A DNA stretch of 36,336 bases. It comes from Myxococcales bacterium. GTDB taxonomy: Bacteria; Myxococcota_A; UBA9042. The DNA is taken from positions 1 through 36,336 of the forward strand of contig SHZF01000045.1 of NCBI GenBank assembly GCA_009692425.1, written 5' to 3'. Below the pieces are notes generated by a model. That model ran no database searches. It was not told the origin of the DNA and worked only from the letters and a program-made list of their open reading frames with translations. Both the position numbers and the translations under genes were made by a program. Position 1 is the first letter of the stretch. Each line of letters opens with the position of its first letter. This document shows, one piece after another, positions 3,898 to 36,026 of the stretch.

Positions 3898-4860
3898 ATG
3901 TCTGAAGTCCGCGTCTGGCTCAATGGCCGCATCGTCGATTCCGAAGGTGCCCGCCTGCACCACCTAACCCACTCGTTCCACTACGGGCTAGGCGCGTTCG
4001 AGGGCGTGCGCGCCTATGAGGTCGGTGCGGGCTGTGGCGCCGTCTTCCGCCTGCGCGAGCACATGACCCGGCTCATGAACTCGTGCCACCTCGTCACGCT
4101 CGACAAGGGCTTGCAGTGGAGCGGCGACCAACTCGGTGCAGCGTGCGTCGAGGCGCTGCGCGCGAACCACCTCGCATCGGGCTATCTGCGCCCGGTCGTC
4201 TACCTCGCCCACGGCGCGATGGGGGTCGGCGCGGCCGGCAATCCCGTTCACGCGATGATCGCGGCGTGGAAATGGGGCGCGTACCTCGGCGAAGACGGGC
4301 TGCAACACGGCATTCGCGCCTGCATCTCGTCGTTTCAACGGCCGGGCCACGCGACAACGCTGACCAAGGGCAAGGTGACCGGCCAGTACGTCAACTCGAT
4401 CCTCGCCAAGCGCGAGGCGCTGATGAACGGCTACGACGAGGCGATCCTGCTGAACGAGCAGGGGTACATCACCGAGGCGTCGGGAGAGAACCTGTTCATG
4501 GTGCAGGATGGCCTGCTTGTGACGCCGCCGCTCGGCATGAACATCCTCGGCGGCATCACCCGGGCGACCATCATCGAGGTCGCCTCCGACCTCGGCTTTA
4601 CCGTTGTCGAGCGGCCGTTTGCGCGCGACGAGCTGTATTGTGCCGACGAGGTGTTCCTGACGGGCACCGCGGCCGAGGTGACGCCTGTGCGCGAGGTCGA
4701 TGGCCGCAAGATCGGCAGCGGCACGCGTGGGGCCATCACGGCGGAACTGCAGGCGGTGTATTTCGACATCGTGTACGGCCGCAACCCGAAATACGAACGC
4801 TGGCTGACCCGCTACGAACTCGCCGCGAGCCAAGGCGCCGGCGTGGTGGCGGTGGGCTGA
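3898..4860 (+). CDS. ilvE: Branched-chain amino acid aminotransferase (fold-type IV PLP enzyme)
   Basis: 320 residues, the usual IlvE length. It interconverts leucine, isoleucine and valine with their 2-oxo acids using 2-oxoglutarate/glutamate, the last step of branched-chain amino acid synthesis. The N-terminus has the family pattern WLNGRIVD and FHYGLGAFEGVRAY. The PLP lysine is Lys159 in KGKVTGQYVNSILAK, matching E. coli Lys160 by alignment of the surrounding residues. ITEASGENLF (Glu193) and FLTGTAAEVTPVREVDG are further class IV hallmarks. The ATG follows AAGGAGCGGCC within a duplicated Shine-Dalgarno repeat. The gene is probably cotranscribed with the KOW protein 60 bases downstream. 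D-amino acid transaminase or aminodeoxychorismate lyase are less likely, given the length and the FLTGTAAE motif. Confidence 0.95.
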   Translation: MSEVRVWLNGRIVDSEGARLHHLTHSFHYGLGAFEGVRAYEVGAGCGAVFRLREHMTRLMNSCHLVTLDKGLQWSGDQLGAACVEALRANHLASGYLRPVVYLAHGAMGVGAAGNPVHAMIAAWKWGAYLGEDGLQHGIRACISSFQRPGHATTLTKGKVTGQYVNSILAKREALMNGYDEAILLNEQGYITEASGENLFMVQDGLLVTPPLGMNILGGITRATIIEVASDLGFTVVERPFARDELYCADEVFLTGTAAEVTPVREVDGRKIGSGTRGAITAELQAVYFDIVYGRNPKYERWLTRYELAASQGAGVVAVG

Positions 4861-4920
4861 GACGGCCCGCGCTTCGCTTCCCGTTGTTCCATTCCATACA
4901 CGCGAAGATCCGGGGCCGCC

Positions 4921-5943
4921 ATGGCGCTTTTCGAGCCGTTCGAGGCGTGGGCCGCCGCGGATTTCGACGCCTTCTCCGAAGGCAAGCGGCGCTCCAACCG
5001 CTTCAACCTGGAGCGGGCCCGCGTGCGCCACCGGGTGGCCAGCCTGGTCGAACAGGCTTGCGACCGAGCGGGCATCGATCGCAGCGGTCTCGAACTGTGG
5101 ACGAGTCTTGACCATCCCCACCTGCACAACGGCCACGTCGTCGCACATCAGTTGGCGGTCCTGTGCCGCGATCCGACGGGCCGCGGCGTCATCGAAGCCA
5201 GCCGCCCCGCAATCGAAGCGCACGATGTCGCCCGCGGCCACGCCCATGCCGGGGTGCGGGTCCACGCCGACGGTGTCGATCTTGTGTTCGCGGTGCCGGA
5301 ACTCTCCCGCGAGCGCGGCGACCTGATCGATGTGCTCGGCGATCTCGGCGCGCTCTCCGAGGCGGGCCTGGTTGCGCACGTCGACGGCATCGCGGCCGAC
5401 CAGGAAACCCTCGACGTCGCGCTGCTCGAACCCGGCGCGCTGGGCTTCGCCTGGCTGTGCAAGATTGCGCGGGCCGATGCGTTGGCAGGGGCGGGCAGCA
5501 GCGACGACGTCACCGCCTTTCTCACCGCCGCCGGGCCGGTGTTGCTGCGTGTACTCGGGCTGGCCCCGCACCTCAGCAGTGAAGGCGATGATGCAGACGG
5601 GCGGGACGGCGCCAGCCCAGCGCCCCCGGCCGAGGTCCCCGTGGCTGCCGCTGGGGCGTCGGGCACGCGCACGACTGGTCCCGTCCGAACCGATTCCGCG
5701 GGAGCCGCCGCCGCCTACCGGCCGTTCGGCAAGGCCCCACCGCCCACCCGCGTCGCGCCGCCGCCACCGCCCAAGGCCCCGCCGAAGCCCAAGCCCATCG
5801 AAAACGGGGCGCGCGTGCGACTCGTGACGGGGCCGTTTGCCGGCAAGGTCGGTACGGTCACAGCCATGCACGGCGGGCAGGTGCAGGTGCATCTGGGGTT
5901 GATGGCGGTCAAGGTGGAGGCGGCTGACGTGCGGGTGGTGTGA
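4921..5943 (+). CDS. Uncharacterised protein with a C-terminal KOW domain
   Basis: 340 residues. The first ~220 residues are a mixed acidic globular region that I do not recognise. It includes SLDHPHLHNGHVVAHQLAVL and a hydrophobic segment around LLEPGALGFAWLCKIARADAL. A low-complexity linker rich in Ala, Pro and Lys follows (about residues 230-295). The last ~45 residues form a KOW motif (GARVRLVTGPFAGKVGTVTAM), the small beta-barrel seen in NusG, Spt5 and ribosomal proteins L24 and L26, which usually binds RNA, RNA polymerase or ribosomal partners. There is no signal peptide, so it is cytoplasmic. It lies 60 bases after ilvE and is probably in the same operon. A role in transcription or translation is only an inference from the KOW domain. 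Confidence 0.75.
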   Translation: MALFEPFEAWAAADFDAFSEGKRRSNRFNLERARVRHRVASLVEQACDRAGIDRSGLELWTSLDHPHLHNGHVVAHQLAVLCRDPTGRGVIEASRPAIEAHDVARGHAHAGVRVHADGVDLVFAVPELSRERGDLIDVLGDLGALSEAGLVAHVDGIAADQETLDVALLEPGALGFAWLCKIARADALAGAGSSDDVTAFLTAAGPVLLRVLGLAPHLSSEGDDADGRDGASPAPPAEVPVAAAGASGTRTTGPVRTDSAGAAAAYRPFGKAPPPTRVAPPPPPKAPPKPKPIENGARVRLVTGPFAGKVGTVTAMHGGQVQVHLGLMAVKVEAADVRVV

Positions 5944-6315
5944 CGGCCTACGCCGGAGCTACCGTCACATCGCCATCGTCAGCCAGCCCGATGGCGCTCG
6001 CGGGCCTGGGCTCATCTGCAACTTCGCAACTCGTGCCGGTGTCTGGCCTGGTCTTGCCGGGCGGGGGTGAATGGTTTTTTTGGGCTTGCACTCCAGTCCT
6101 ACGATTCCCTCGCCTTCGCGCAGCCGGCACCCCGGCGCGGCCGGCAGGCGTGAGCTTTGGACTCTTGCCAGCAAACTACACAAAAATAGTGAGTTCGGGG
6201 CGAATCAACGCCGGCACGGCCTCCGCAAGCCGAGTCAGGTTTGGCCGTCACGGTGATGGCGATTTTCTTGCGATGGCCCTGGCCCGCCCGATGCCGCGTT
6301 GGCTCTTGCATTCAC
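5944..6315. other. Intergenic region between convergent KOW-protein and galU genes
   Basis: 372 bases without a credible gene. It includes unusually AT-rich patches: a run of seven T at 6075-6081 and a patch around 6174-6192. A weak promoter-like pair, TTGCCA (6165-6170) and TAGTGA (6187-6192) with a 16-nt spacer, lies about 50 bases before a hairpin with a T-rich tail at 6244-6269. This could be a readthrough terminator or a very short RNA gene; I cannot tell which. Confidence 0.5.
6244..6269 (+). terminator. Possible intrinsic terminator on the plus strand
   Basis: A six-base-pair stem (GCCGTC at 6244-6249 with GATGGC at 6255-6260, one wobble), loop ACGGT, followed by GATTTTCTT. The stem is short but the tail is T-rich, so it could end the ilvE/KOW transcript before the convergent galU gene, or end a short transcript starting near 6195. 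Confidence 0.4.
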
Positions 6316-11793: not shown

Positions 11794-13728
11794 ATGTCGA
11801 GTGCGGAGGGCCGTGATGCAGACAAGCTGATCGGAACCGTATTCGCGGACCGCTACGTCGTCCAGTCCAAGCTGGGCAAGGGCGGGATGGCGGTCGTGTA
11901 CAAGTGTCTCGACAAGAACCTCGGCCGCGACGTGGCGCTGAAGGTGTTGCGGACCGACGTCGCCCCGGACCCGATTGCGGCCAAGAGACTGATGCGCGAG
12001 GCCCGCGCGGCGGCGGCACTCCACCATCCCAACATCATTACGATTCACGACGTCGGCGAGCGCGATGGGATCGTGTTCCTGGTGATGGAGGTGCTGATCG
12101 GCAAGGCCATGTCAGACCTCATGGAACACGACGGCGCGGTGACCGTGGAGCGCGCGCTCAACATGGCCGAGCAAGTCGCTTCTGCCCTCGTCGTGGCGCA
12201 CGCCAACGGGATCGTCCACCGCGACATCAAGCCGGAGAACCTGTTCCTGATCGATTCGGCCGGCGGCGGCGACTTCATCAAGATGCTCGATTTCAGCATC
12301 GCAAAGCTGCCGACGCAGATGGTCACTGCCGCGTTGACCCGCGCCGGCAGCGTGTTCGGCACTCCCCACTACATGGCGCCGGAGCAGGTCGAGGGCAAGC
12401 CGGCCGCGCCCCAGACCGACCTGTATGCGCTGGGGGCCGTGCTGTACGAATTGATCATGGGCGAGCCACCGTTCGACGGCTCGAGCGTGATCGACATCCT
12501 GCTCAAGCACGTCAAGCAACCGCCGCCGCGCATCGAGAAGCCGGGCGTTCGCCTGCCGCACGGCCTGGCCGATTTCGTGCAGCAACTGCTGGCCAAGAAG
12601 GTGTCCGATCGCCCCCCAACGGCTGCTGCGGCGCGCGATCGCCTGTCCGCCCTGTTGTCTGAGGCGCGCGGCATGAACAGCGGCGACTATGAGCCGATGA
12701 CCATGGCGATGTCGATGATTCCGGCGGACTACCTGCCGGGCGGGCCCGCGGCACCCCCCAGCTTGCCGACCCCGGCGAACTCCGCGGTGCCGCCGATCCA
12801 TTTCGTGCCGCCCGCCCTCGGAGTCGCAGCGCATTCTACGGGTCGGCCCGCCACGGCCGCACGCCCGAAGCCTGCGGCGCCCGCCCACCAGACGCTCTCC
12901 AATGACGCCGTGCACTCGCCCGTCGGCGGCTGGCCAGCACCTGCGGCCCCGCCGACGCCGGCTGCAGCGGCCGGTGCCGGTGCGGATCCATTCGTGCTGC
13001 CCTCCGCACCCCCTCCGCGCAAGTTCGCCGCGTTCGGAGGTGACGACGACGACGCGCGCACGATGGTCGGAGTCGGCGTCGCAAGTGCGCTGAACGAAGC
13101 CGCGAACCGCGCCAAGGCCGGTTCCGCTGGCGCCGCACACCCGCACGCTCCGGGCGCAAGCTCTGCACCGCCGCTCGCCTCCGGTGGCACGCCGGCGCAC
13201 CGCCCCGCAGCGCCCGGCACGCCGCCTGTCGTTGCCCAGCCTCTGCGCCGCACCACCAGCGGTGTCTTGGATGCGCCGAGCGGGGGCCCACGGCCGTCGT
13301 TGGCCGCCCGTCCGAGTCGCGCCCTGACATCCGTTGCGACCCGTGCCGCGGGAGCACTGCCGCCGGGCCCGCCGCCGATGCAGGCAGCGCATTCCGCGCA
13401 GGTTGCGCCAGCTGCTGCGCTGGACGGCGCCTCGCAGCGTCGGCCTCCTGTCCGCCAACCGACGCGCGCGCCAAGCAACAAGTATCCCGCCGCCCAGGTT
13501 GAAGGTGACGATCGTGCGGCGACGCAGCCCGAAGTGCAGGCGGACCCGTCGTTGTTGCAACGGCGTGCCTCAGAACACGAGACGATGCCGCCGGCCGCAG
13601 TCGATGCATCCGCTCCGCCCCATGCCGCCGCCCCGCGCCGGACGCTGCTCTGGATCGCGGTCCCGGTGGCCGTGATCGGTATCGTCGGGCTCGGCGTCGC
13701 GATCTGGCTGCTGCGTGGTGGGATGTAG
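11794..13728 (+). CDS. Membrane-anchored Ser/Thr protein kinase (PknB-like) with a DFS activation motif
   Basis: 644 residues. The ATG at 11794 has GGAGG six bases upstream; a GTG two codons earlier is less likely. The kinase domain spans about residues 20-285: glycine loop [10 protein letters not shown] (27-36), VALK with Lys50, catalytic HRDIKPEN (142-149), and LDFSIAK with Asp166, Phe167, Ser168 in place of the usual [14 protein letters not shown] segment and [12 protein letters not shown] follow, so the fold is complete. Residues ~315-610 are an Ala/Pro-rich disordered region, and the last ~28 residues are a single transmembrane helix with almost nothing beyond it, leaving the kinase in the cytoplasm. 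There is no extracellular sensor domain. The 3' end is the first unit of a 17-bp tandem repeat. Substrate unknown. Confidence 0.95.
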
Positions 13729-13829
13729 TGCGTGGTGGGATGTAGTGCGTGGTGGGATGTAGTGCGCGGTGGGATGTAGTGCGTGGTGGGATGTAGTGCG
13801 TGGTGGGATGTAGTGCGCGGTGGGATGGA
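13711..13829 (+). repeat. 17-bp minisatellite (seven units) from the kinase stop into the next gene start
   Basis: Seven head-to-tail 17-base units, consensus GTGCGTGGTGGGATGTA. They start at 13711 inside the last codons of the kinase gene and end at 13829. Unit 1 begins with C, units 4 and 7 read GCGC, and unit 7 ends ATGGA instead of ATGTA. Each of units 1-6 contains GGTGGG then ATGTAG across the unit junction, that is, a ribosome-binding-like stretch and a start codon directly followed by a stop. The kinase's own last codon and stop are the first such ATGTAG. The metzincin-like gene starts just after the last unit. Confidence 0.93.
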
Positions 13830-15367: not shown

Positions 15368-16054
15368 TCAGGTCGCTTCGTTCCTGCCGAAGTGCGCCGC
15401 CGGTGTGAAACCCAAGGTCCGCGCTGCAGCCCGCAGCCACGTGCGCGCGTCGGGCTCGCTGCCCAGGTGGTCGCGCGCCAGGCGCCAGGCGGTCGTCGTC
15501 GGCGCCACAGGGGGCGTGCGGCGGCGATCGGCTCCGGCATGGACCGGGACGTGGTTCGCTTCAAAGGCTTCTGCCAATGGTACCCGCACGGTCCGAATGC
15601 GGCCGATCGCGAGCCCACTGCGCCGGACCAACTCCACGCGCCGCACATCGACCCACAGCCGCGCCGATTGCAGCGACCGCGTCAGCCACCACACGGCCAG
15701 GCAGCCGCCCGCGAGCACGTACAGCCCCGGAGCGTACGTGCCGTCGAGGTAGATGCCGACGAGCACGACCCAGGGCAGGGCGATGGCGGCGAAACCCGTC
15801 GCGACACGCAGCAGGCCGAAGATGCCGCTGCCGGGTTCGGAGTGGCGCCGGCCCGCGAGCACGCTGAACGTGCCGCCGAGCACCGCCAACGCCGTGCGCA
15901 CCGCGAACGAAATGAGAAACGTCGCAATGGCCATGGCGATGGCCCTGCGCAGATCGCGTTCGTCGACCACCCCCGCCGGATCGACGGCGCGCAGCAGCGG
16001 CTCTGGCAGGGCGTTGGCGAATGTGGCAAACCCGGACATGGTGCGTCGCAGCAT
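15368..16054 (-). CDS. Hypothetical inner-membrane protein
   Basis: 228 residues from the ATG at 16054 (a second ATG at 16039 is equally possible; neither has a clear ribosome-binding site). Three hydrophobic segments are visible: AIAMAIATFLISFAVRTALAVL, split as AIAMAIATFLIS and the following residues; then FAAIALPWVVLVGIYL; and GLYVLAGGCLAVWWL. A soluble C-terminal part of ~95 residues starts with VDVRRVELVRRSGL and could be a small beta domain. I do not recognise the family. It ends six bases from the stop of the convergent metzincin-like gene and diverges from the prenyltransferase operon. Confidence 0.65.
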   Translation of the reverse strand: MLRRTMSGFATFANALPEPLLRAVDPAGVVDERDLRRAIAMAIATFLISFAVRTALAVLGGTFSVLAGRRHSEPGSGIFGLLRVATGFAAIALPWVVLVGIYLDGTYAPGLYVLAGGCLAVWWLTRSLQSARLWVDVRRVELVRRSGLAIGRIRTVRVPLAEAFEANHVPVHAGADRRRTPPVAPTTTAWRLARDHLGSEPDARTWLRAAARTLGFTPAAHFGRNEAT

Positions 16055-16139: not shown

Positions 16140-17027
16140 ATGGCCCCGTCGCTGCGTACAGCCCCACATTCAGCGCTCTGGGCGTCCGGTCGCGCGGGCC
16201 CGGCGCCGTGGCGAGTCTGGCGCGTGCGGCAGTGGTTGCACTTTCTCGCGCTCCCCCTGGCGGCGATCGGGCCGGAGGCTTGGCTCCATGACACCGCCCG
16301 GGCCGCCGCGACCGTGGCACCTGGGCTGGCATTGGCGGCCTTGCTGCTCGGGGCCGCGTACGGCTGGAATGCCTGTGCCGACGCGGCGACGGACGCCTGC
16401 ACACAGAAGAATCCGTTGGCTGGAAACGCAGTTCCCTACTCGGCGTGGGCCTGGTCCACGGGGGCCGCAGCTGCCGCCCTGGTGTTGGCACTCGGTCGGG
16501 GACCTTGGGTCGCTGCGGCGACCGCTACAAGCCTGGGCGCCAGTTGGGGCTACAGCCTGGGACCGCGTTGGAAGGCGCGACCCGGTGTCGGTCTTCTGGC
16601 AAACTGCATGATTTTTATTCCGATCTTGTTCGTGGCAGGCACCTGGTCGCCGGCGCGCATGGGCATGTTTGCGTTCCTGCTCGGCGCGTTGTTGCTGCAG
16701 AACCAGTTGCTGCATGAGTGCGAAGACCGCAGGGAAGACGCCGCGGCCGGAGACCATACGACGGCGCAGTGGCTCGGGGGCCGCGCGGCGCGAGCAGCCG
16801 TCGGTGCCCTCGGGGTGGCGGCGGCTCTTGGCGTCGTCGGGATGGCAGGCGTTGGCGGGGCGGCACGCGGTGCGGGGTTGGCGGGCGGGTCGAGTGCCAT
16901 CGTCGCAGTGGCACTGCTCGGGTGCACCGCCTGGAGCCTGTGCACACCGACGGCCTCCATCGCGCGGGCGCGCCACCGCCGAGTCGCGTTCCTGTGCGGG
17001 GTGCTGGCGTACGGGCTGGGCGCATGA
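16140..17027 (+). CDS. UbiA-family prenyltransferase
   Basis: 295 residues. UbiA enzymes are integral membrane proteins that transfer a polyprenyl or other isoprenoid chain to an acceptor, using two Asp-rich motifs that bind Mg-diphosphate. The first is N77-x3-D81-x3-D85 followed by QKNPLAG. The second is D196-x3-D200 in HECEDRREDAAAGD. About eight hydrophobic helices can be drawn. The start is uncertain: ATG at 16140 has GGAGAGG some 14 bases upstream, and a -10-like TATGCT lies at 16104-16109. Its TGA overlaps the ATG of the radical SAM gene (ATGA). No quinone-ring or heme O genes are nearby, so the acceptor is not predictable from context. Confidence 0.87.
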   Translation: MAPSLRTAPHSALWASGRAGPAPWRVWRVRQWLHFLALPLAAIGPEAWLHDTARAAATVAPGLALAALLLGAAYGWNACADAATDACTQKNPLAGNAVPYSAWAWSTGAAAAALVLALGRGPWVAAATATSLGASWGYSLGPRWKARPGVGLLANCMIFIPILFVAGTWSPARMGMFAFLLGALLLQNQLLHECEDRREDAAAGDHTTAQWLGGRAARAAVGALGVAAALGVVGMAGVGGAARGAGLAGGSSAIVAVALLGCTAWSLCTPTASIARARHRRVAFLCGVLAYGLGA

Positions 17028-18076
17028 AGCTGTCGCGACCCGCAGCCGCCTGGGTGCGCTCCGCGCGCACGTTGCGCATTGGCGCACGGGTGCTCGCCGC
17101 GCGCGTGGGACGGCAGGCTGTGCCGCCCTCGGTCACGTTCATTCTGACGCACCGCTGCAATTTTCGCTGTGCGTACTGCGACATCCCGGCTGCGGCCGCG
17201 GCCGAATTGACCGCCGCTGAGTGGTGCCAGGTCCTCGATGAACTGGCCGCGCACGGCCTGGCCCGCGCCAGCTTTTCCGGCGGCGAAGCGCTGCTGCGCG
17301 ACGATGCCATCGATGTCATCGCGCACGCCCACGGCCTCGGGTTGCAGACCTCGCTCAACACGAACGGTTGGTTCACGGCACCGACGCTCGACCGGCTGGC
17401 CCGGCATCTCGACCTGCTCGTGCTTTCCGTCGATGGGCCGCGCGCTGTGCACGACGATCTGCGGCGCCGCCCCGGCTCGTTCGACCGGGTCGTAGAAGCC
17501 ATCGAACAAGCGCGCGGACTCGGGCTGGCGGTGGCGACCATCACCGTCCTGACGCCGCACAACCTCGAGGTCGTCGAACCCGTCCTCGAACTGGCGGCGC
17601 GTCTGGGCTTTTTCGCCTACTTTCAACCCGCCCATGCAGACTGTTTCGACCGCGCCCCCGGTCTCGCTGCTGGCCTCGATGCCCGCGTGCTGCGCGACGT
17701 CGCCACGCGCCTGCGGGCCGCGCGCAGGACGGGATTGCCGGTCGGCGCGTCGCCGGGCTACCTCGACCGGCTCGAGCGCGCCCCCCACTTCTCGCGCTGC
17801 GAAGACTGCGCCGCAGGTCGCTGGTTCGCGACCGTCATGCCCGACGGCACGTGCGTGCCCTGCCACCTCACATCGCAGCAACGCGCCTGGCCCAACGGCC
17901 GCGCGTTGGGGTTCGCACACGCGTTGGCGACCTTGCCCCGTCCATTGGTCGGCGCGGGCTGCGCGATCAGCCCGTATGTCGAGAGCGACCTGCTGTTCGG
18001 GCTGGACCCGCGCGCAATTGCGTCGGCGGTCCTGCGTCTCCGCGGCGCCCCTGTGCCCATGCCGCCGCATGGCTGA
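17024..18076 (+). CDS. Radical SAM enzyme with SPASM-like C-terminal cysteines
   Basis: 350 residues; the ATG at 17024 overlaps the upstream TGA by four bases. The radical SAM cluster motif CxxxCxxC is Cys45, Cys49 and Cys52 (HRCNFRCAYC), with the SAM-binding SGGEALLRDD and TSLNTNGW downstream. Near the C-terminus Cys259-x2-Cys262 and Cys277-x2-Cys280 (GTCVPCH) suggest an auxiliary iron-sulfur cluster of the SPASM or twitch kind, common in enzymes acting on peptides or large substrates. No small precursor peptide is evident in the operon, and the neighbours are a prenyltransferase and a polytopic glycosyltransferase-like protein, so a lipid or lipid-linked substrate is the better guess. The next gene overlaps its last codons by eight bases. 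Confidence 0.9.
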   Translation: MKLSRPAAAWVRSARTLRIGARVLAARVGRQAVPPSVTFILTHRCNFRCAYCDIPAAAAAELTAAEWCQVLDELAAHGLARASFSGGEALLRDDAIDVIAHAHGLGLQTSLNTNGWFTAPTLDRLARHLDLLVLSVDGPRAVHDDLRRRPGSFDRVVEAIEQARGLGLAVATITVLTPHNLEVVEPVLELAARLGFFAYFQPAHADCFDRAPGLAAGLDARVLRDVATRLRAARRTGLPVGASPGYLDRLERAPHFSRCEDCAAGRWFATVMPDGTCVPCHLTSQQRAWPNGRALGFAHALATLPRPLVGAGCAISPYVESDLLFGLDPRAIASAVLRLRGAPVPMPPHG

Positions 18077-19754
18077 CGTCACACTCGCTGTCGTCGTCGT
18101 GGGCGTTGTCGGTGCGGTGGCGGCCCTCGCCTGGTCGGCGGCAGACCGTTGGCAAGCGCTGCCGGTGCCCGAGCGACGCGCGGTACTCGCGACGGGAGCA
18201 CTCATCGCGCTCGCCGTGACCGCGCGGTTGTGGCTCGTCACGCCGGGGTACCTGCACGCGAACCTGCATGGGCCGGCGCTGGCCGACGCCGCGCTCGCGT
18301 GGCCCCGGCTCGATGCGCACCGGGCGACCTATGGGCCTGTGGGCTTCTTCCTGCTGGGTGGCATCGCGCATTCGTTCGGTGGCGGATGGGAGGGGCTGGT
18401 GCGCGCCAACGCCCTGGCTGGCGGCGCCCTGCTGGCGACGATCGCCTGGGTGGCCACGCGCTGGGCCGGGACGGTGCAGGCGGCGCCTATTGCCGTAGCG
18501 TTGGGCGCGCTGCTGCCGGGCCTGGCGCTGGTGTCGGCCTCGGAAGACGTGCATCCGGTGGCGACGGCGCTGGCGCTGGCGAGCGTGGCGCTTTTCGACA
18601 CGTACGGCCGCGACCGGCGCGCGGTCCACCTCGTTGCCGGATGCCTGCTGGCCAGCCTCGCGGCCCACAGCCGGCAGACCTTGGTGCCGCTGGCGCTGTT
18701 GGCTCCCCTGTGGGCCGCAATGCGCACCCATGATCTCGTTCGCGATTGGCGGTTTCAGGCAGCGGGCGCCGTCGTCGTTGCGGCCGTGACTGCGCGGGTT
18801 GCGGCGACGCTGGCAGACCGCGGCGATCAGGTCACGTTCGACCTCGTGCCGCTGCTGTTTGCCGACCCCGTGGCGCTGGCGCCCGTTTTCGCCCACCACC
18901 CCCTGACCGCGCCCGCGCACGCGGCCCTGTTGCTGCCGCTTGCGCTGTGGGGAGCGGTGCAACTCTGGCGGCACGACCGCGCAGGCTGGGCGATCGTTGG
19001 GGGGCTGTGCGGCCTCACTGCCTTGACCTTGCCGCTCGGCGTGCCCATTGCGGGAAACGAATTGGGCTTTCGCCTGCCGGTGACCGCGCTGGCCGTGGCC
19101 GTGGCGGCCCTCGCGTTGGTGCCCTGGACCCGTCGGCAGGGGCTCGCCGGGCGCAGCCTGGGCATTGCGGCGTTGGCGGCACACGGATTGCTGTTGCCTG
19201 CCCTGTACGCCCCGCGCCGGGTCGCGCCGATGGATTCGGAACGAGAACACCTGCAACACTCCGCCGCGTGGTTGGGTCCGGCGCCTACGTTTGCGGTCCT
19301 GCCCGTGCGCGAACCTGCGCCGTCCTACTGGCTGCCACGTCATGCGCTCCCCGCGGGGGCGCGGACCGTCGTGGCGACGCCGGACGCCATCGCCGCCGCG
19401 CGGAGACCCGTACACTTCCTCTCCGGGCTCCGCTGCCGGGCGTGGTCGGGCCGGGAACTCGCAGCCCACGCCGGCGTCCCCACGACGGCGCTCGCGCTGG
19501 TATGGTCCTCCTACGCAGGCCAATTGCCGCCCGGTGTCGTGCCGAGCGACGCTGTGCGGCCGGAATGCCTGGAACTGTTGCGCGGTGCGATCGCCGTGGG
19601 TCCGGCAACCCGGATCGCGCGGCCGTACTCGGAGCTTCCGTTTGCCGTGTTCGGTTCGGCTCCCCTCGTGGTCCAAGTGTATCGGTTGGCTGCAACGGGC
19701 AGCACGGGACTGCCTACTGCCCCGCGCCAAGACATTGCCGGAGAGCGACCGTGA
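18069..19754 (+). CDS. Polytopic membrane protein resembling GT-C glycosyltransferases
   Basis: 561 residues; the ATG at 18069 overlaps the radical SAM gene by eight bases. It opens with a hydrophobic helix, then a short loop (TPGYLHANLHGPALAD) followed by about a dozen hydrophobic segments. A soluble C-terminal part of ~150 residues begins near LYAPRRVAPMDSEREHL. This topology is that of GT-C enzymes, which use polyprenyl-phosphate sugars at the periplasmic face. I do not see a clear Asp-Glu pair in the first loop, so the catalytic assignment is tentative. The end overlaps the convergent minus-strand gene by 41 bases. With UbiA upstream, synthesis and use of a polyprenyl-linked donor is one model. 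Confidence 0.75.
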   Translation: MADVTLAVVVVGVVGAVAALAWSAADRWQALPVPERRAVLATGALIALAVTARLWLVTPGYLHANLHGPALADAALAWPRLDAHRATYGPVGFFLLGGIAHSFGGGWEGLVRANALAGGALLATIAWVATRWAGTVQAAPIAVALGALLPGLALVSASEDVHPVATALALASVALFDTYGRDRRAVHLVAGCLLASLAAHSRQTLVPLALLAPLWAAMRTHDLVRDWRFQAAGAVVVAAVTARVAATLADRGDQVTFDLVPLLFADPVALAPVFAHHPLTAPAHAALLLPLALWGAVQLWRHDRAGWAIVGGLCGLTALTLPLGVPIAGNELGFRLPVTALAVAVAALALVPWTRRQGLAGRSLGIAALAAHGLLLPALYAPRRVAPMDSEREHLQHSAAWLGPAPTFAVLPVREPAPSYWLPRHALPAGARTVVATPDAIAAARRPVHFLSGLRCRAWSGRELAAHAGVPTTALALVWSSYAGQLPPGVVPSDAVRPECLELLRGAIAVGPATRIARPYSELPFAVFGSAPLVVQVYRLAATGSTGLPTAPRQDIAGERP

Positions 19755-20961
19755 CTGAGCGCACGGGGCCTGGCGGCAACGACGGGCCCAAGACCTGCGC
19801 GACCCAGCAGCCGGGTGTCAGGTCGAGCGCCCCGAGCGCTCGCTCAATGTCGGCCTCGGGCAAGACCTCAGTGCGCTTCACCGCACCCAGCGGCAGGACG
19901 CGCACATCGGCATCGGGCGCTGCCGCCACCGGAATGCGTGCGGCGACGCACTGGGTCCCGGTTGCGGAGCGCGCCAGTTCGATCTCGCCGGGCCCGACCG
20001 GTTGCAGGCCGCGGGCGCCCAGACCCGCTTCGATGGCGGCACCTGTCGCCGCGAGGCCCGCGGGCCGCCACGGCACGACGAAGCGCGGCCAGGAGGCTGC
20101 CGGCGCCAATGGCTCCTGCAACGGCCCACGCGGGGACCAATGCCACAGAGCGCGGCCTCCGACCCGCACTGGCAAGGCGAGTCCCGCAGCCTGGACCTGG
20201 GCGCTGCCGCACGTGGCGCCTCGCAGCGTGCCGTCGAGGGCCAGAGAGACGACGCAAGCGCCCGGCAGTGCCGGGTGGACCAGACGCAAGTCGAATTCCC
20301 CTGCGCCGGCACCACCATGCAGCGCCTCGATCTGCCACGCCCCGGCCGCATCGACGCCGGCCACCGCCCGCAGCGCCAAGGCCAGCCGCGCCGTATCCGC
20401 GAGCGCCGCATCGCACACCGCCTGCCCTTCACCCGCCGACAACACACACGTGCGCGCCGCGTCGCCTTGCCAGCGGACGCGCTCGCCGCCGGGTAGGCCG
20501 AGTCCCGGTCGATCTGCGGTCCACTCCACCCGCCACTGCACCCACACCGCGCCGGCCGCAGCCCTCAACGCCAGGTCGGGGCCCGCGAACCCATGCAGGT
20601 TCATCCACTTGCGCGCCCGCTGAACGAGTTCGGGAGCGTCGTCGAGGGAGAGCACTTCGAACCAGGGCACCGCCGTCGGCGAGGCGGTTCGCGGCGCATC
20701 GATGGAGGGACCCGCAGTTGCGGCTGCCGGCGAGGCGGCAGCGGGCGGCGGCACGGCCGCAATGAGCATCGACCGTACCGGCGCCCGCTCCGCTGCAGTC
20801 TGTGCAGATGGTGGCGGGGGGTCGGCACCCGCGCCGCAGCGGCAGCCGGGCAGGGCACCCAACAGCCACGCCACCAAGCCAACGACCGCGCCAAGCCTTC
20901 GACACGGTTCCGGTCGGTCGAAGGGGGGCGCGTGGCGCCAAGTGCACGGGTTGGCCGACAT
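19714..20961 (-). CDS. Hypothetical lipoprotein-like secreted protein
   Basis: 415 residues from the ATG at 20961; a GTG at 20991 in frame is an alternative, and neither has a strong ribosome-binding site. The N-terminus has a long charged leader, then the hydrophobic run [15 protein letters not shown], which ends in an imperfect lipobox. A Pro/Ala-rich linker follows and then ~300 residues of mainly beta-type sequence with scattered Cys ([36 protein letters not shown]), suggesting disulfides in the periplasm. No recognised domain. Convergent with the GT-like gene, overlapping it by 41 bases, and divergent from purE. Confidence 0.65.
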
Positions 20962-33586: not shown

Positions 33587-33628
33587 TGATTACGCACAGG
33601 TGACTACGCACAGGTGACTACGCACAGG
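33587..33628 (+). repeat. 14-bp tandem repeat (three units) at the radical SAM start codon
   Basis: Three units of TGACTACGCACAGG (the first is TGATTACGCACAGG) run from 33587 to 33628 and are followed by TGAGC and the ATG at 33634. Each unit carries CACAGG followed by TGA, so a weak ribosome-binding core and a stop codon recur every 14 bases. Confidence 0.9.
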
Positions 33629-33633
33629 TGAGC

Positions 33634-34608
33634 ATGCGCTGGCTTGAGATTTCTCCTGGATTCTCTTGCAATTGCCGTTGCATCGGCTGCCATTCGTGCA
33701 GCCCCGCCGCCAGCGATCAGATGCCAACCGAAGACGTGCTGCGCTGGCTCCAATCCGGCCGTCGCAGTGGTGCGCGGCACCTGTGGCTGTCGGGCGGCGA
33801 GCCGACCCTGCGCAAGGACTTCCTCCAGATGCTGCGCGCCGCGCGCCACCTCGGATACGAACGGATCAAGGTCCAGTCGAACGGGATGCTTTTCGCGTAT
33901 CCCGAATTCGCCGCGCGCGCCGTGCAGGCCGGCATGACCGAGGTGAACCTCCTGCTCAAGAGCCTCGATCCGAAGGTCCACGACGGCCTGAATCGCACAC
34001 CGGGGTCGCACGCCGCGCTGACCCGGGGCCTCGACGTGCTGCGCCCGCTGCCAGTGCGACTCGAGGGCGACTTCTTGATGACGACGCGCAACTGGCAGGA
34101 ATTGCCGGCCATCGTCGCTCACTATGCAGAACTCGGACTGGTGCACTTCAACATCTGGCTGTTTTCACTGGTGGATCAGGGAGACGCCGACCTGCGCCGC
34201 CTGGTGCCGCGCCTGTCGGAGTGTCGGCCCGCCATGCTCGAAGCGCTCGCCGTTGCGAAGGCCCACGGCGTCACGTTGTGCTCGCTCAACACGCCCCATT
34301 GCACCCTGCCACCCGAAGCCTGGGAGATGCAGTTCGATTCCGCCGGGATGGAGTTGCTTGTCGTCAATCCGGGCGGGCGTGCCTTCATGCTCGAGACATC
34401 GAGCATCGAGCAAGGGACATTCGTGGCGGCGTGCGAGGGGTGCGCGGTGCGGACGTTCTGCCATGGAATGCGCAGCGATTACATAGCTGTCTACGGCGAC
34501 GGGGAGTTGCGTGCGGTGCGACCGGACGAACTCGCGGGGTTCGAACCGCGCGGCTCGGTGCTCGACATCGGGCCCGTGGGGCGGGCGCCACCAGCCGGCG
34601 CGCGTTGA
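33634..34608 (+). CDS. Radical SAM protein with C-terminal Cys cluster
   Basis: 324 residues from the ATG at 33634; a GTG two codons upstream in frame is also possible. The cluster motif is Cys12-x3-Cys16-x2-Cys19 within FSCNCRCIGCHSC, so there are extra Cys at 14 and 22. The SAM-binding segment is LWLSGGEPTLRKDF, followed by KVQSNGML and NLLLKSLDPKVHDGLN. The C-terminal part has Cys267-x2-Cys270-x5-Cys276 (CEGCAVRTFCHG) followed by DYIAVYGDGEL, which suggests an auxiliary cluster or metal site. The substrate is unknown. The neighbours are a Ser/Thr kinase upstream and a Cys-rich lipoprotein downstream. A stem-loop (34600-34629) spans its stop codon. Confidence 0.9.
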   Translation: MRWLEISPGFSCNCRCIGCHSCSPAASDQMPTEDVLRWLQSGRRSGARHLWLSGGEPTLRKDFLQMLRAARHLGYERIKVQSNGMLFAYPEFAARAVQAGMTEVNLLLKSLDPKVHDGLNRTPGSHAALTRGLDVLRPLPVRLEGDFLMTTRNWQELPAIVAHYAELGLVHFNIWLFSLVDQGDADLRRLVPRLSECRPAMLEALAVAKAHGVTLCSLNTPHCTLPPEAWEMQFDSAGMELLVVNPGGRAFMLETSSIEQGTFVAACEGCAVRTFCHGMRSDYIAVYGDGELRAVRPDELAGFEPRGSVLDIGPVGRAPPAGAR

Positions 34609-34706: not shown

Positions 34707-36026
34707 ATGAATCGTTTCGGCTGGCTGTTGGCGTGCGTCGTGGCGGCGGCGTGCAGTTCCGCCCCTCCCAGCGGCGGCGGATTCGCGCCGGGACCGAGCG
34801 GAGCCGATGGGACAGCCCCAGCGGATGGGGCATCGGCGGCCGACGGGGCGAAAGCCACCGCAGACGCTGCGGGCGTGCCGGCCGATGGCGACGTGGCAGG
34901 CCCGGCCGATGCGAGTACCTCCAACGACGGGGCCGAAGCCGGCGGGTCGGCGGACGCGATCGATGCGGCACCCTTGGCGGACGCGACTGCGGGCGACGGG
35001 ACCAGCGGCGTGGACGGCACCACCGATGCCGTCAAGGGCGGCGGCGGGCTGGACGCGACGAAAGTGGACATCGTTCCTTCCGACGCGAAGCCCGGCGACT
35101 CCGCGGTGGGCGACGCGAAGCCCGGCGACTCCGCGGTGGGCGACGCGAAGCCCGGCGACTCTGCGGTGGGCGACGCGAAGCCCGGCGACTCTGCGGTGGG
35201 CGACGCGAAGCCCGACACGGCGCCCGGCAAGTGGCCATTCAGTTGCGGCAACGGCAACTGCGATTGGGGTGAGAACGAGTTGAGTTGCCTGGCGGACTGC
35301 GTCGCCACGTGCGGCGACGGCGACTGCAACGTGACCGAAGACGGTAAATCGTGCCCGACAGACTGCGACCCCGACTGTGGCGACACGACCTGCGACGAAG
35401 CTAACGGCGAAGACTCGTGGAACTGCCCGAAAGACTGCCCGGACCCGTGCGGCGACCAGTTGTGCGACCTACTCGACGAGGACTCGTTCAGCTGCCCGGC
35501 CGACTGCCCCGACCCGTGCGGCGACGGAGTGTGCGACTACGACGACGGCGAGGACTTCGACTACTGCCCGGTCGACTGTCCCGACCTGTGCGGGAACGGC
35601 AACTGCGACGCGGACAAGAACGAAGACTTCAACGCGTGCCCCATGGACTGCCCCGATCCCTGCGGCGATGGCGTGTGCGATCCGGGCGATTTCGAGGACT
35701 TCGCCAATTGTCCGAAGGATTGCCCGGACCCGTGCGGAGACGGGCAGTGCGACCTCAGCGACGGGGAGGATTTCGCGACCTGCCCGAAGGATTGTCCGGG
35801 CGTGTGCGGCGACACGAAGTGCGAAGCGAAGTTCGGTGAGGACTGCGTCAGCTGCGACAAGGACTGCGGCGTGTGCCTGCCTGGCTGCACAAAATCGAAC
35901 GACCCCACATGCGGCGGCTGCGCCTGCGAGAAATGCGTGTGTGCCATGGACGACTACTGCTGCACGACCGCGTGGGACATCGTCTGCGTCGATGAATGCA
36001 AGGACAAATGCGGCAGCTGCAAGTAG
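34707..36026 (+). CDS. Lipoprotein with acidic stalk, 10-residue repeats and nine CGDGxC modules
   Basis: 439 residues; ATG at 34707 with GGAG seven bases upstream. The lipobox is AAAC (VVAAAC). The stalk (residues ~20-175) is Ala/Asp/Gly-rich and includes four copies of GDAKPGDSAV. From about residue 180 there are nine modules of 22-24 residues of the form CGDGxCDxxxxEDxxxCPxDCPDP (shown as pattern), each with four Cys and an acidic patch that could bind calcium. The end, CVCAMDDYCCTTAWDIVC and CKDKCGSC, is a further Cys-rich cap seen in exported proteins of related bacteria as I recall. It is probably surface-exposed and disulfide-stabilised; binding partner unknown. It has its own promoter and is followed by the repeat element at 36034. 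Confidence 0.88.
   Translation: MNRFGWLLACVVAAACSSAPPSGGGFAPGPSGADGTAPADGASAADGAKATADAAGVPADGDVAGPADASTSNDGAEAGGSADAIDAAPLADATAGDGTSGVDGTTDAVKGGGGLDATKVDIVPSDAKPGDSAVGDAKPGDSAVGDAKPGDSAVGDAKPGDSAVGDAKPDTAPGKWPFSCGNGNCDWGENELSCLADCVATCGDGDCNVTEDGKSCPTDCDPDCGDTTCDEANGEDSWNCPKDCPDPCGDQLCDLLDEDSFSCPADCPDPCGDGVCDYDDGEDFDYCPVDCPDLCGNGNCDADKNEDFNACPMDCPDPCGDGVCDPGDFEDFANCPKDCPDPCGDGQCDLSDGEDFATCPKDCPGVCGDTKCEAKFGEDCVSCDKDCGVCLPGCTKSNDPTCGGCACEKCVCAMDDYCCTTAWDIVCVDECKDKCGSCK
35082..35214 (+). repeat. 30-bp in-frame tandem repeat (four units plus a partial)
   Basis: Units begin GACGCGAAGCCCGGCGACTC and repeat every 30 bases at 35082, 35112, 35142 and 35172, with a partial unit from 35202. Units 1-2 and 3-4 differ by a single silent base, showing recent duplication. 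They encode DAKPGDSAVG. Confidence 0.93.

Follow-up and report, generated by a model that had tools for sequence, protein, structure and literature searches.

The window analysed here, 36,336 nucleotides long, is the whole of one contig (SHZF01000045.1, our C86) from the GC-rich genome of a Myxococcales bacterium (GCA_009692425.1, our G000; assembly of 4.94 Mb, 96 % complete). Three genes on its forward strand encode a transferase of the UbiA superfamily (P0001), a radical S-adenosylmethionine (SAM) enzyme (P0002) and a multi-pass membrane protein with a predicted GT-C glycosyltransferase fold (P0003) (Table 1). The UbiA stop codon and the ATG of the radical SAM gene share four bases (ATGA), and the radical SAM gene overlaps the membrane-protein gene by eight bases. 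The open reading frame coordinates and the Pfam UbiA and Radical_SAM matches thus agree with an earlier note on this DNA, which had named the three families and both overlaps, and the overlaps support its view that the genes are transcribed together. Because the neighbouring genes on both sides (15368-16039 and 19714-20769) lie on the opposite strand, we consider the trio an isolated three-gene operon. A scan of the region for promoters and terminators returned neither a sigma-70-like site nor a meaningful terminator, a result that is uninformative for so GC-rich a genome. For the UbiA gene we prefer the start at 16140 over an alternative GTG at 16224, since the latter would remove R28, which is invariant in the subfamily.

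Table 1. Genes of the operon and conserved motifs within them (window coordinates)
Feature	Position	Strand	Basis or conservation
UbiA-superfamily intramembrane transferase, 295 aa, orphan subfamily F1 (P0001)	16140-17027	+	Pfam PF01040, family alignments A1 and A5
UbiA Asp-rich motif 1 and signature, N77-x3-D81-x3-D85-x4-K90-N91-P92	16368-16415	+	16-sequence alignment
UbiA acidic motif 2, H192-E193-xx-D196-xx-E199-D200	16713-16739	+	16-sequence alignment
Radical SAM enzyme, 350 aa, predicted twitch-like auxiliary domain, F2 (P0002)	17024-18076	+	Pfam PF04055, AlphaFold2 model
Radical SAM cluster motif CxxxCxxC (C45, C49, C52)	17156-17179	+	invariant in 16/16
Auxiliary Cys set C259-x2-C262-x17-C280-x32-C313	17798-17962	+	all four Cys invariant in 16/16
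Predicted GT-C-fold multi-pass membrane protein, 561 aa, predicted periplasm-facing glycosyltransferase (P0003)	18069-19754	+	AlphaFold2 model
Putative first-loop motif of the GT-C protein, H63-A-N65-L-H-G68	18255-18272	+	alignment A3; H63, N65 and G68 invariant
S158-E159-D160 of the GT-C protein, candidate acidic site in its second loop	18540-18548	+	alignment A3; invariant

Families, motifs and predicted folds

The UbiA protein exceeds the Pfam cut-off for PF01040 (43.9 bits, cut-off 34.2). Conservation of the UbiA and radical SAM motifs was scored in 16 sequences from 16 loci that carry both genes. All 16 UbiA sequences, that of the window among them, keep both acidic Mg2+ motifs of the superfamily. 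In motif 1, N77, D85 and K90 are identical in all 16 and D81 is D or E; in motif 2, H192, E193, D196 and D200 are identical and E199 is E or D, which gives the consensus HExxDxx(E/D)D throughout. P0001 reaches no NCBIfam equivalog cut-off, those of the quinone (UbiA/MenA/MqnP) and heme O (CtaB) families included, and its sole NCBIfam match, PRK12875, scores 18.5 bits against a cut-off of 205. For the 14 members of alignment A1, the best E-values to the menA, ubiA_proteo and cyoE_ctaB models range from 4e-4 to 8e-4. Among solved structures the UbiA profile clearly matches one only, the archaeal prenyltransferase AfUbiA (4tq3; E 1.4e-11), and matches to models of geranylgeranylglyceryl phosphate (GGGP) geranylgeranyltransferases are weak.

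Three further members of the UbiA superfamily are encoded in the host genome: on contig C133 a heme O synthase that exceeds its cut-off, on C59 a protein resembling decaprenylphosphoryl-5-phosphoribose (DPPR) synthase (167 bits, cut-off 207), and on C74 one with no family assignment. The C59 gene (L156:3549-4469) lies about 1.5 kb from a gene for a 763-residue radical SAM protein (L156:5930-8221), which itself resembles the protein encoded at 3926-6259 of locus L145.

The C59 paralogue helps to address what the window UbiA may transfer. In the structure of the UbiA-fold phosphoribosyltransferase Rv3806c, K28, R90 and K208 are among the residues important for binding phosphoribosyl pyrophosphate (PRPP) or decaprenyl phosphate, and in UbiA enzymes that use prenyl diphosphates the pocket carries negative charge and holds a second Mg2+ (PMC10994848). 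The C59 protein aligns with Rv3806c over these three positions and keeps the Lys/Arg segments. Aligned through it, all 16 F1 sequences have H, Y or P at the K28 position. They also lack, one Lys excepted, the Lys/Arg cluster that follows motif 1, and the GKR/KRK segment of the Rv3806c type is replaced by Q-L-(L/V/I/A)-H-E followed by the acidic motif. Since the Lys/Arg residues are missing and acidic motif 2 is present, the residue pattern favours a prenyl-diphosphate donor over DPPR-type phosphoribosyl transfer. We rejected a DPPR-type polyprenyl-phosphate phosphoribosyltransferase as a candidate because equivalents of K28, R90 and K208 are not conserved across the F1 sequences, and this weakens the simplest version of the earlier proposal, in which the trio would use a lipid-linked pentose donor.

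The radical SAM protein matches PF04055 with 78.2 bits (cut-off 29.5) and scores well under all equivalog cut-offs for radical SAM families. Its AlphaFold2 model (mean predicted local distance difference test score, pLDDT, 79.5) was compared with the Protein Data Bank (PDB), as was that of P0003. The closest folds, at Z scores of about 21 to 24, include SkfB (24.0), BlsE (23.5), PqqE (21.8), MoaA (21.2), SuiB and viperin-like enzymes, with SkfB, BlsE and SuiB within one Z unit of each other. The earlier note had seen a second Cys cluster of SPASM type. The cluster itself stands, as four C-terminal Cys (C259, C262, C280 and C313) are invariant and G275 precedes C280 in a GX4C motif; a full SPASM domain does not, as Pfam SPASM (PF13186) is unmatched and four conserved Cys are present compared with seven in the SPASM set. 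The model supports a radical SAM barrel with one predicted, twitch-like auxiliary cluster, a fold that does not tell the substrate. A membrane-docking amphipathic helix at the N-terminus of this enzyme was also considered and rejected, the hydrophobic moments being not above those of shuffled sequences in 14 of 16 cases.

No Pfam or NCBIfam model matches the third protein. Its AlphaFold2 model, built from six sequences (pLDDT 64.7), resembles the oligosaccharyltransferase (OST) subunit STT3A (Z 17.3), PglB (Z 15.6) and ArnT (Z 13.8 over 403 residues). Ranks 1 to 24 are all GT-C proteins (Z 17.3 to 13.4) and the first unrelated row has a Z score of 7.8. Foldseek alone is weak here (best E 1.1e-3). 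A relative at L105 (8082-9758) reaches the Pfam PMT_2 cut-off of 26.1 bits with 27.9 bits, and a protein of a second family (A4, below) in L146 does so with 26.8 bits. Taken together, the structure predictions support a GT-C glycosyltransferase fold, in line with the GT-C-like character first read from the letters.

Distribution and linkage of the three genes

This UbiA is present in 15 of 379 Myxococcota genomes (E below 1e-30). The relatives found belong to Myxococcota or stand near that phylum, with named homologues in Nannocystis and in a Polyangiaceae metagenome-assembled genome. In all 11 UbiA-positive genomes with a visible neighbourhood (G000, G003, G007, G010, G036, G037, G093, G188, G371, G372 and G374), the radical SAM partner adjoins UbiA or shares a few-gene cluster with it. 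In the other four (G006, G012, G019 and G290), UbiA lies at or close to a contig end; G012 has a radical SAM relative on another contig, with no UbiA beside it. The pair also occurs in five Nannocystis genomes, in the Polyangiaceae genome (L028) and in locus L029. The two genes overlap or abut in 9 of 16 compared loci, and adjacent pairs that do not overlap lie no more than 111 bases apart. The exact UbiA, radical SAM, GT-C order with 4-base overlaps recurs in L029 (CAIRTQ010000130.1), so that the linkage, whose loss outside this genome would have counted against the earlier proposal, is conserved. As read from the sequence, the L029 trio lies downstream of apparent lipid A biosynthesis genes. 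The distance matrices of UbiA and of the radical SAM enzyme correlate (r 0.84), but this was set aside as evidence because shared ancestry alone would yield such a value.

In most UbiA-positive genomes the pair comes with a GT-C-type protein from one of two families. Family A3, that of the window, has strong matches only in G000, G007, G019, G036 and G037, that is in 5 of 15 UbiA-positive and 0 of 364 UbiA-negative genomes (Fisher 4.7e-8), and a single-sequence search of 53 relatives returned the same five, all among the nine with this UbiA (Fisher 4.4e-5); both values ignore genome relatedness and are hence too optimistic. Family A4, whose profile was built without three of its five matching genomes, has strong matches only in G012, G093, G188, G290 and G374 and likewise in none of the 364 UbiA-negative genomes. 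The A3 and A4 genome sets are disjoint and all UbiA-positive; we handle them as two families since profile comparison gives a probability of only 9.3 %. In G371 and G372 (loci L141 and L143), A4-like proteins lie beside the pair, with profile comparison probabilities of 97.7 % and 65.7 %, the second being weak. Up to 12 of the 15 UbiA-positive genomes therefore have an A3- or A4-type protein, the exceptions being G003, G006 and G010, and five genome families (f1, f5, f9, f18 and f22) are represented in this co-occurrence. The GT-C gene adjoins the pair in the window, L029, L145 and L028. The three components are thus inherited together: versions of the trio are found in scattered relatives of the predatory myxobacteria, and the joint recurrence of the gene families in several bacterial families is far above chance.

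Several loci hold larger clusters. L105, L107 and L146 each encode, in addition, an aminotransferase of the DegT type and a radical SAM protein of the SPASM type. A Tes/TrsS-like radical SAM protein is common to L105 and L107; the L107 copy scores 119 bits with the Tes model, whose cut-off is 450. Near the pair, both L107 and L029 encode a radical SAM protein of the B12-binding type, and the L105 cassette is flanked by PapB-like radical SAM proteins. In L142, L144, L145 and L146, Cupin_8/JmjC proteins are encoded a short distance from this UbiA. DegT enzymes are mostly nucleotide-sugar aminotransferases, and for this reason their presence leans towards a sugar-containing product.

The mix of radical SAM types with a DegT-type aminotransferase is unusually dense around the cassette in L105 (4339-18000), L107 (7280-16795) and L146 (1942-10269). 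Some 14 kb away from the operon, the window itself encodes a further radical SAM protein (33628-34608, forward strand), relatives of which are found near the cassette in L145 (2991-3929, 39 % identity) and L109 (12308-15070, 30 %). Elsewhere in the window there are two tandem arrays: 6.8 copies of a 17-base unit (13712-13827, 96 % match) lying between the gene of a protein kinase and its neighbour, and 4.5 copies of a 30-base unit (35081-35214, 99 % match) within the open reading frame at 34707-36026.

A proposed lipid pathway and its rivals

We hypothesize, with a probability of roughly 45 %, that the trio forms one membrane-centred pathway making a modified, sugar-bearing prenyl lipid. Going by its family and motifs, UbiA, acting at the inner membrane, would link an isoprenoid chain with a polar acceptor, the donor presumably being a prenyl diphosphate held by Mg2+ at the two acidic motifs. 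The cytosolic radical SAM enzyme would then cleave SAM at its CxxxCxxC cluster and abstract a hydrogen; with its single auxiliary iron-sulfur cluster it may oxidise, epimerise or cross-link the head group of the lipid or its precursor. The GT-C enzyme would finally glycosylate the product on the periplasmic side, or pass a finished lipid-linked unit to a surface glycan. We infer the substrates, the product and the order of these reactions from the enzyme families; a modified polyprenyl lipid or lipid-linked glycan as the product is suggested by the GT-C co-occurrence and by the DegT genes of L105, L107 and L146. In its most far-reaching form, which we put forward tentatively, the product would be an undescribed class of bacterial membrane lipid or lipid-linked sugar in Myxococcota. 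The radical SAM enzyme would remodel a prenyl-linked intermediate made by the orphan UbiA before glycosylation or transfer by the GT-C enzyme, which would place radical chemistry within a glycan pathway of polyprenyl type.

A number of observations weigh against this reading. The confidence of the P0003 model is low (64.7). An acidic residue is expected in the first periplasmic loop of GT-C enzymes, and the HANLHG stretch of family A3 has none; family A4 has an invariant Glu (E33) shortly after the N-terminal hydrophobic stretch, the loop assignment coming from a low-confidence model. Besides the optimism of the Fisher values, all five A3-positive genomes contributed to the A3 profile, although the single-sequence search gave the same five. 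The L029 contig is binned as Elusimicrobia and may be misbinned, so that its trio possibly reflects either horizontal transfer or misbinning. Finally, in the five Nannocystis genomes, G003 and G010 no recognised GT-C gene adjoins the pair and a strong A3 homologue is absent genome-wide; the GT-C step is therefore not universal.

One alternative explanation is a divergent three-component periplasmic glycosylation system, in which UbiA would be a polyprenyl-phosphate sugar or sugar-phosphate synthase like Rv3806c, the radical SAM enzyme would replace the DprE1/E2-type epimerases acting on the lipid-linked sugar, and the GT-C protein would transfer that sugar to a surface glycan. The logic of the components is that of a described system with a UbiA-type polyprenyl phosphoribose synthase, a flippase, a GT-C protein and optional epimerases (PMC11127046). 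In addition, R28, Y74, N77, D81, Y138 and K145 of the window UbiA are common to Rv3806c-type enzymes, the DegT-type aminotransferases of L105, L107 and L146 fit a sugar, and the folds closest to P0002 include that of BlsE, a radical SAM enzyme whose substrate is a sugar nucleoside. We nevertheless regard this alternative as rather unlikely: the residues that bind PRPP or decaprenyl phosphate in Rv3806c (K28, R90 and K208) are not conserved in this UbiA, a separate DPPR-synthase-like UbiA on host contig C59 keeps residues of that type, and no phosphatase or flippase gene lies within the operon, the locus only having been searched for these. Improbable to a greater degree is a prenylated small molecule (a specialised metabolite, or a lipid of aromatic or redox type) that UbiA and the radical SAM enzyme would make by themselves, with the GT-C protein as a frequent yet separable tailoring or export function. 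It is kept because of the genomes with the pair and no recognised GT-C gene (Nannocystis, G003 and G010), and both the many radical SAM enzymes of L105, L107 and L146 and the Cupin_8/JmjC proteins near UbiA in L142, L144, L145 and L146 recall specialised-metabolite clusters. Strong A3 and A4 matches are, however, confined to UbiA-positive genomes and often adjoin the pair, and the genes recognised beside the cassette include none for aromatic precursors or quinone tailoring.

The remaining alternatives concern single components. The radical SAM enzyme might be a peptide maturase and UbiA a peptide prenyltransferase, given that the best fold match of P0002, SkfB, matures a peptide and that PapB-like proteins flank the L105 cassette. 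We find this very unlikely: SkfB, BlsE and SuiB tie as matches, the overlaps or short gaps of adjacent pairs leave little space for a precursor gene between them, and no precursor was recognised, though no dedicated search was made. It is harder still to believe that UbiA is simply the menaquinone or heme O prenyltransferase of the genome, with incidental neighbours. MenA was not detected in G000 or G037, and MqnC was found in 0 of 12 genomes searched, which leaves the quinone prenyltransferase of G000 unassigned and would fit such a housekeeping role; but the subfamily occurs in so few Myxococcota, G003, G007 and G036 carry both this UbiA and a MenA above cut-off, G025 has neither, and the host has its heme O synthase on C133. 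That P0001 falls so far below the cut-off of its sole NCBIfam match points the same way. We rejected a quinone or heme O role on account of the family cut-offs, the coexistence of MenA and CtaB in relatives and the sporadic distribution; firm placement within these families would have counted against the earlier proposal. Just as implausible are archaeal-type ether lipids, with UbiA as digeranylgeranylglyceryl phosphate synthase and radical SAM enzymes cross-linking the chains in the manner of tetraether synthase. This idea draws on the Tes/TrsS-like proteins and on the archaeal origin of 4tq3. We rejected it because the GGGP synthase family (PF01884) is found in 0 of 16 genomes, the host included, with positive controls; moreover, L105 and L107 were the sole loci in which a Tes-like gene was recognised, the window and the other loci showing none next to the pair, and the UbiA matches to GGGP-geranylgeranyltransferase models are weak.

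If the proposed prenyl lipid pathway holds, radical SAM chemistry would be added to the assembly of lipid-linked glycans or glycolipids, where the known modifying steps that we found are carried out by epimerases, oxidases and reductases, and predatory-type bacteria would possess an as yet unseen lipid or surface glycan. Since cultured Nannocystis species carry the core pair, the proposal should soon be testable.

Comparison with known systems

No described system joining UbiA, radical SAM and GT-C proteins was found in the open-access literature searched, in line with the earlier note. The trio is thus a real, conserved and apparently undescribed combination of enzyme families that are each known. 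Individually, the window UbiA shares with prenyl-diphosphate enzymes such as AfUbiA (4tq3) both Asp-rich motifs, Y138 and K145, but its orphan subfamily has K-N-P after motif 1 and scores below every NCBIfam cut-off. P0002 shares with the twitch/SPASM enzymes SkfB, BlsE, PqqE and MoaA the CxxxCxxC motif, GGE, the C-terminal Cys and the predicted fold (Z 21-24), whereas it forms its own family, with the signature GCAISPY(Q/V)E in one clade and a UbiA as its partner. P0003 shares a predicted fold and a multi-pass architecture with the GT-C enzymes ArnT, protein mannosyltransferases (PMT), OST and AftA/B; unlike these, it has no Pfam match, an HANLHG motif devoid of acidic residues and, later, an invariant SED triplet.

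As a pathway, the mycobacterial route through decaprenylphosphoryl arabinose (DPA), with Rv3806c, DprE1/E2 and GT-C arabinosyltransferases (PMC10994848), has in common with the trio the UbiA-like fold, the logic of a lipid-linked donor and a GT-C consumer. It differs in that the window UbiA lacks the equivalents of K28, R90 and K208 and has an acidic motif 2, and in that the operon has no DprE1/E2-like gene, a DPPR-like paralogue being encoded elsewhere (C59). Of the systems described so far, the three-component pentofuranose glycosylation pathway of Citrobacter youngae O1/O2 (GT136; PMC11127046) comes closest; in it, as in the window, a UbiA-type transferase is encoded together with a GT-C protein and accessory enzymes that alter the lipid-linked sugar. 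In the window a radical SAM protein takes the accessory role, the phosphoribose phosphatase and the MATE/SMR flippase are not among the three genes of the operon, the UbiA lacks key phosphoribosyltransferase residues, and the GT-C proteins of the cassette reach the PMT_2 threshold at best. The trio is not a member of that system, because neither the phosphoribosyltransferase residues nor a phosphatase and flippase in the locus are found. The prenyl lipid pathway that we favour and a pentofuranose-type system nevertheless share a chemistry of lipid-linked sugars or glycolipids, and differ in what UbiA transfers.

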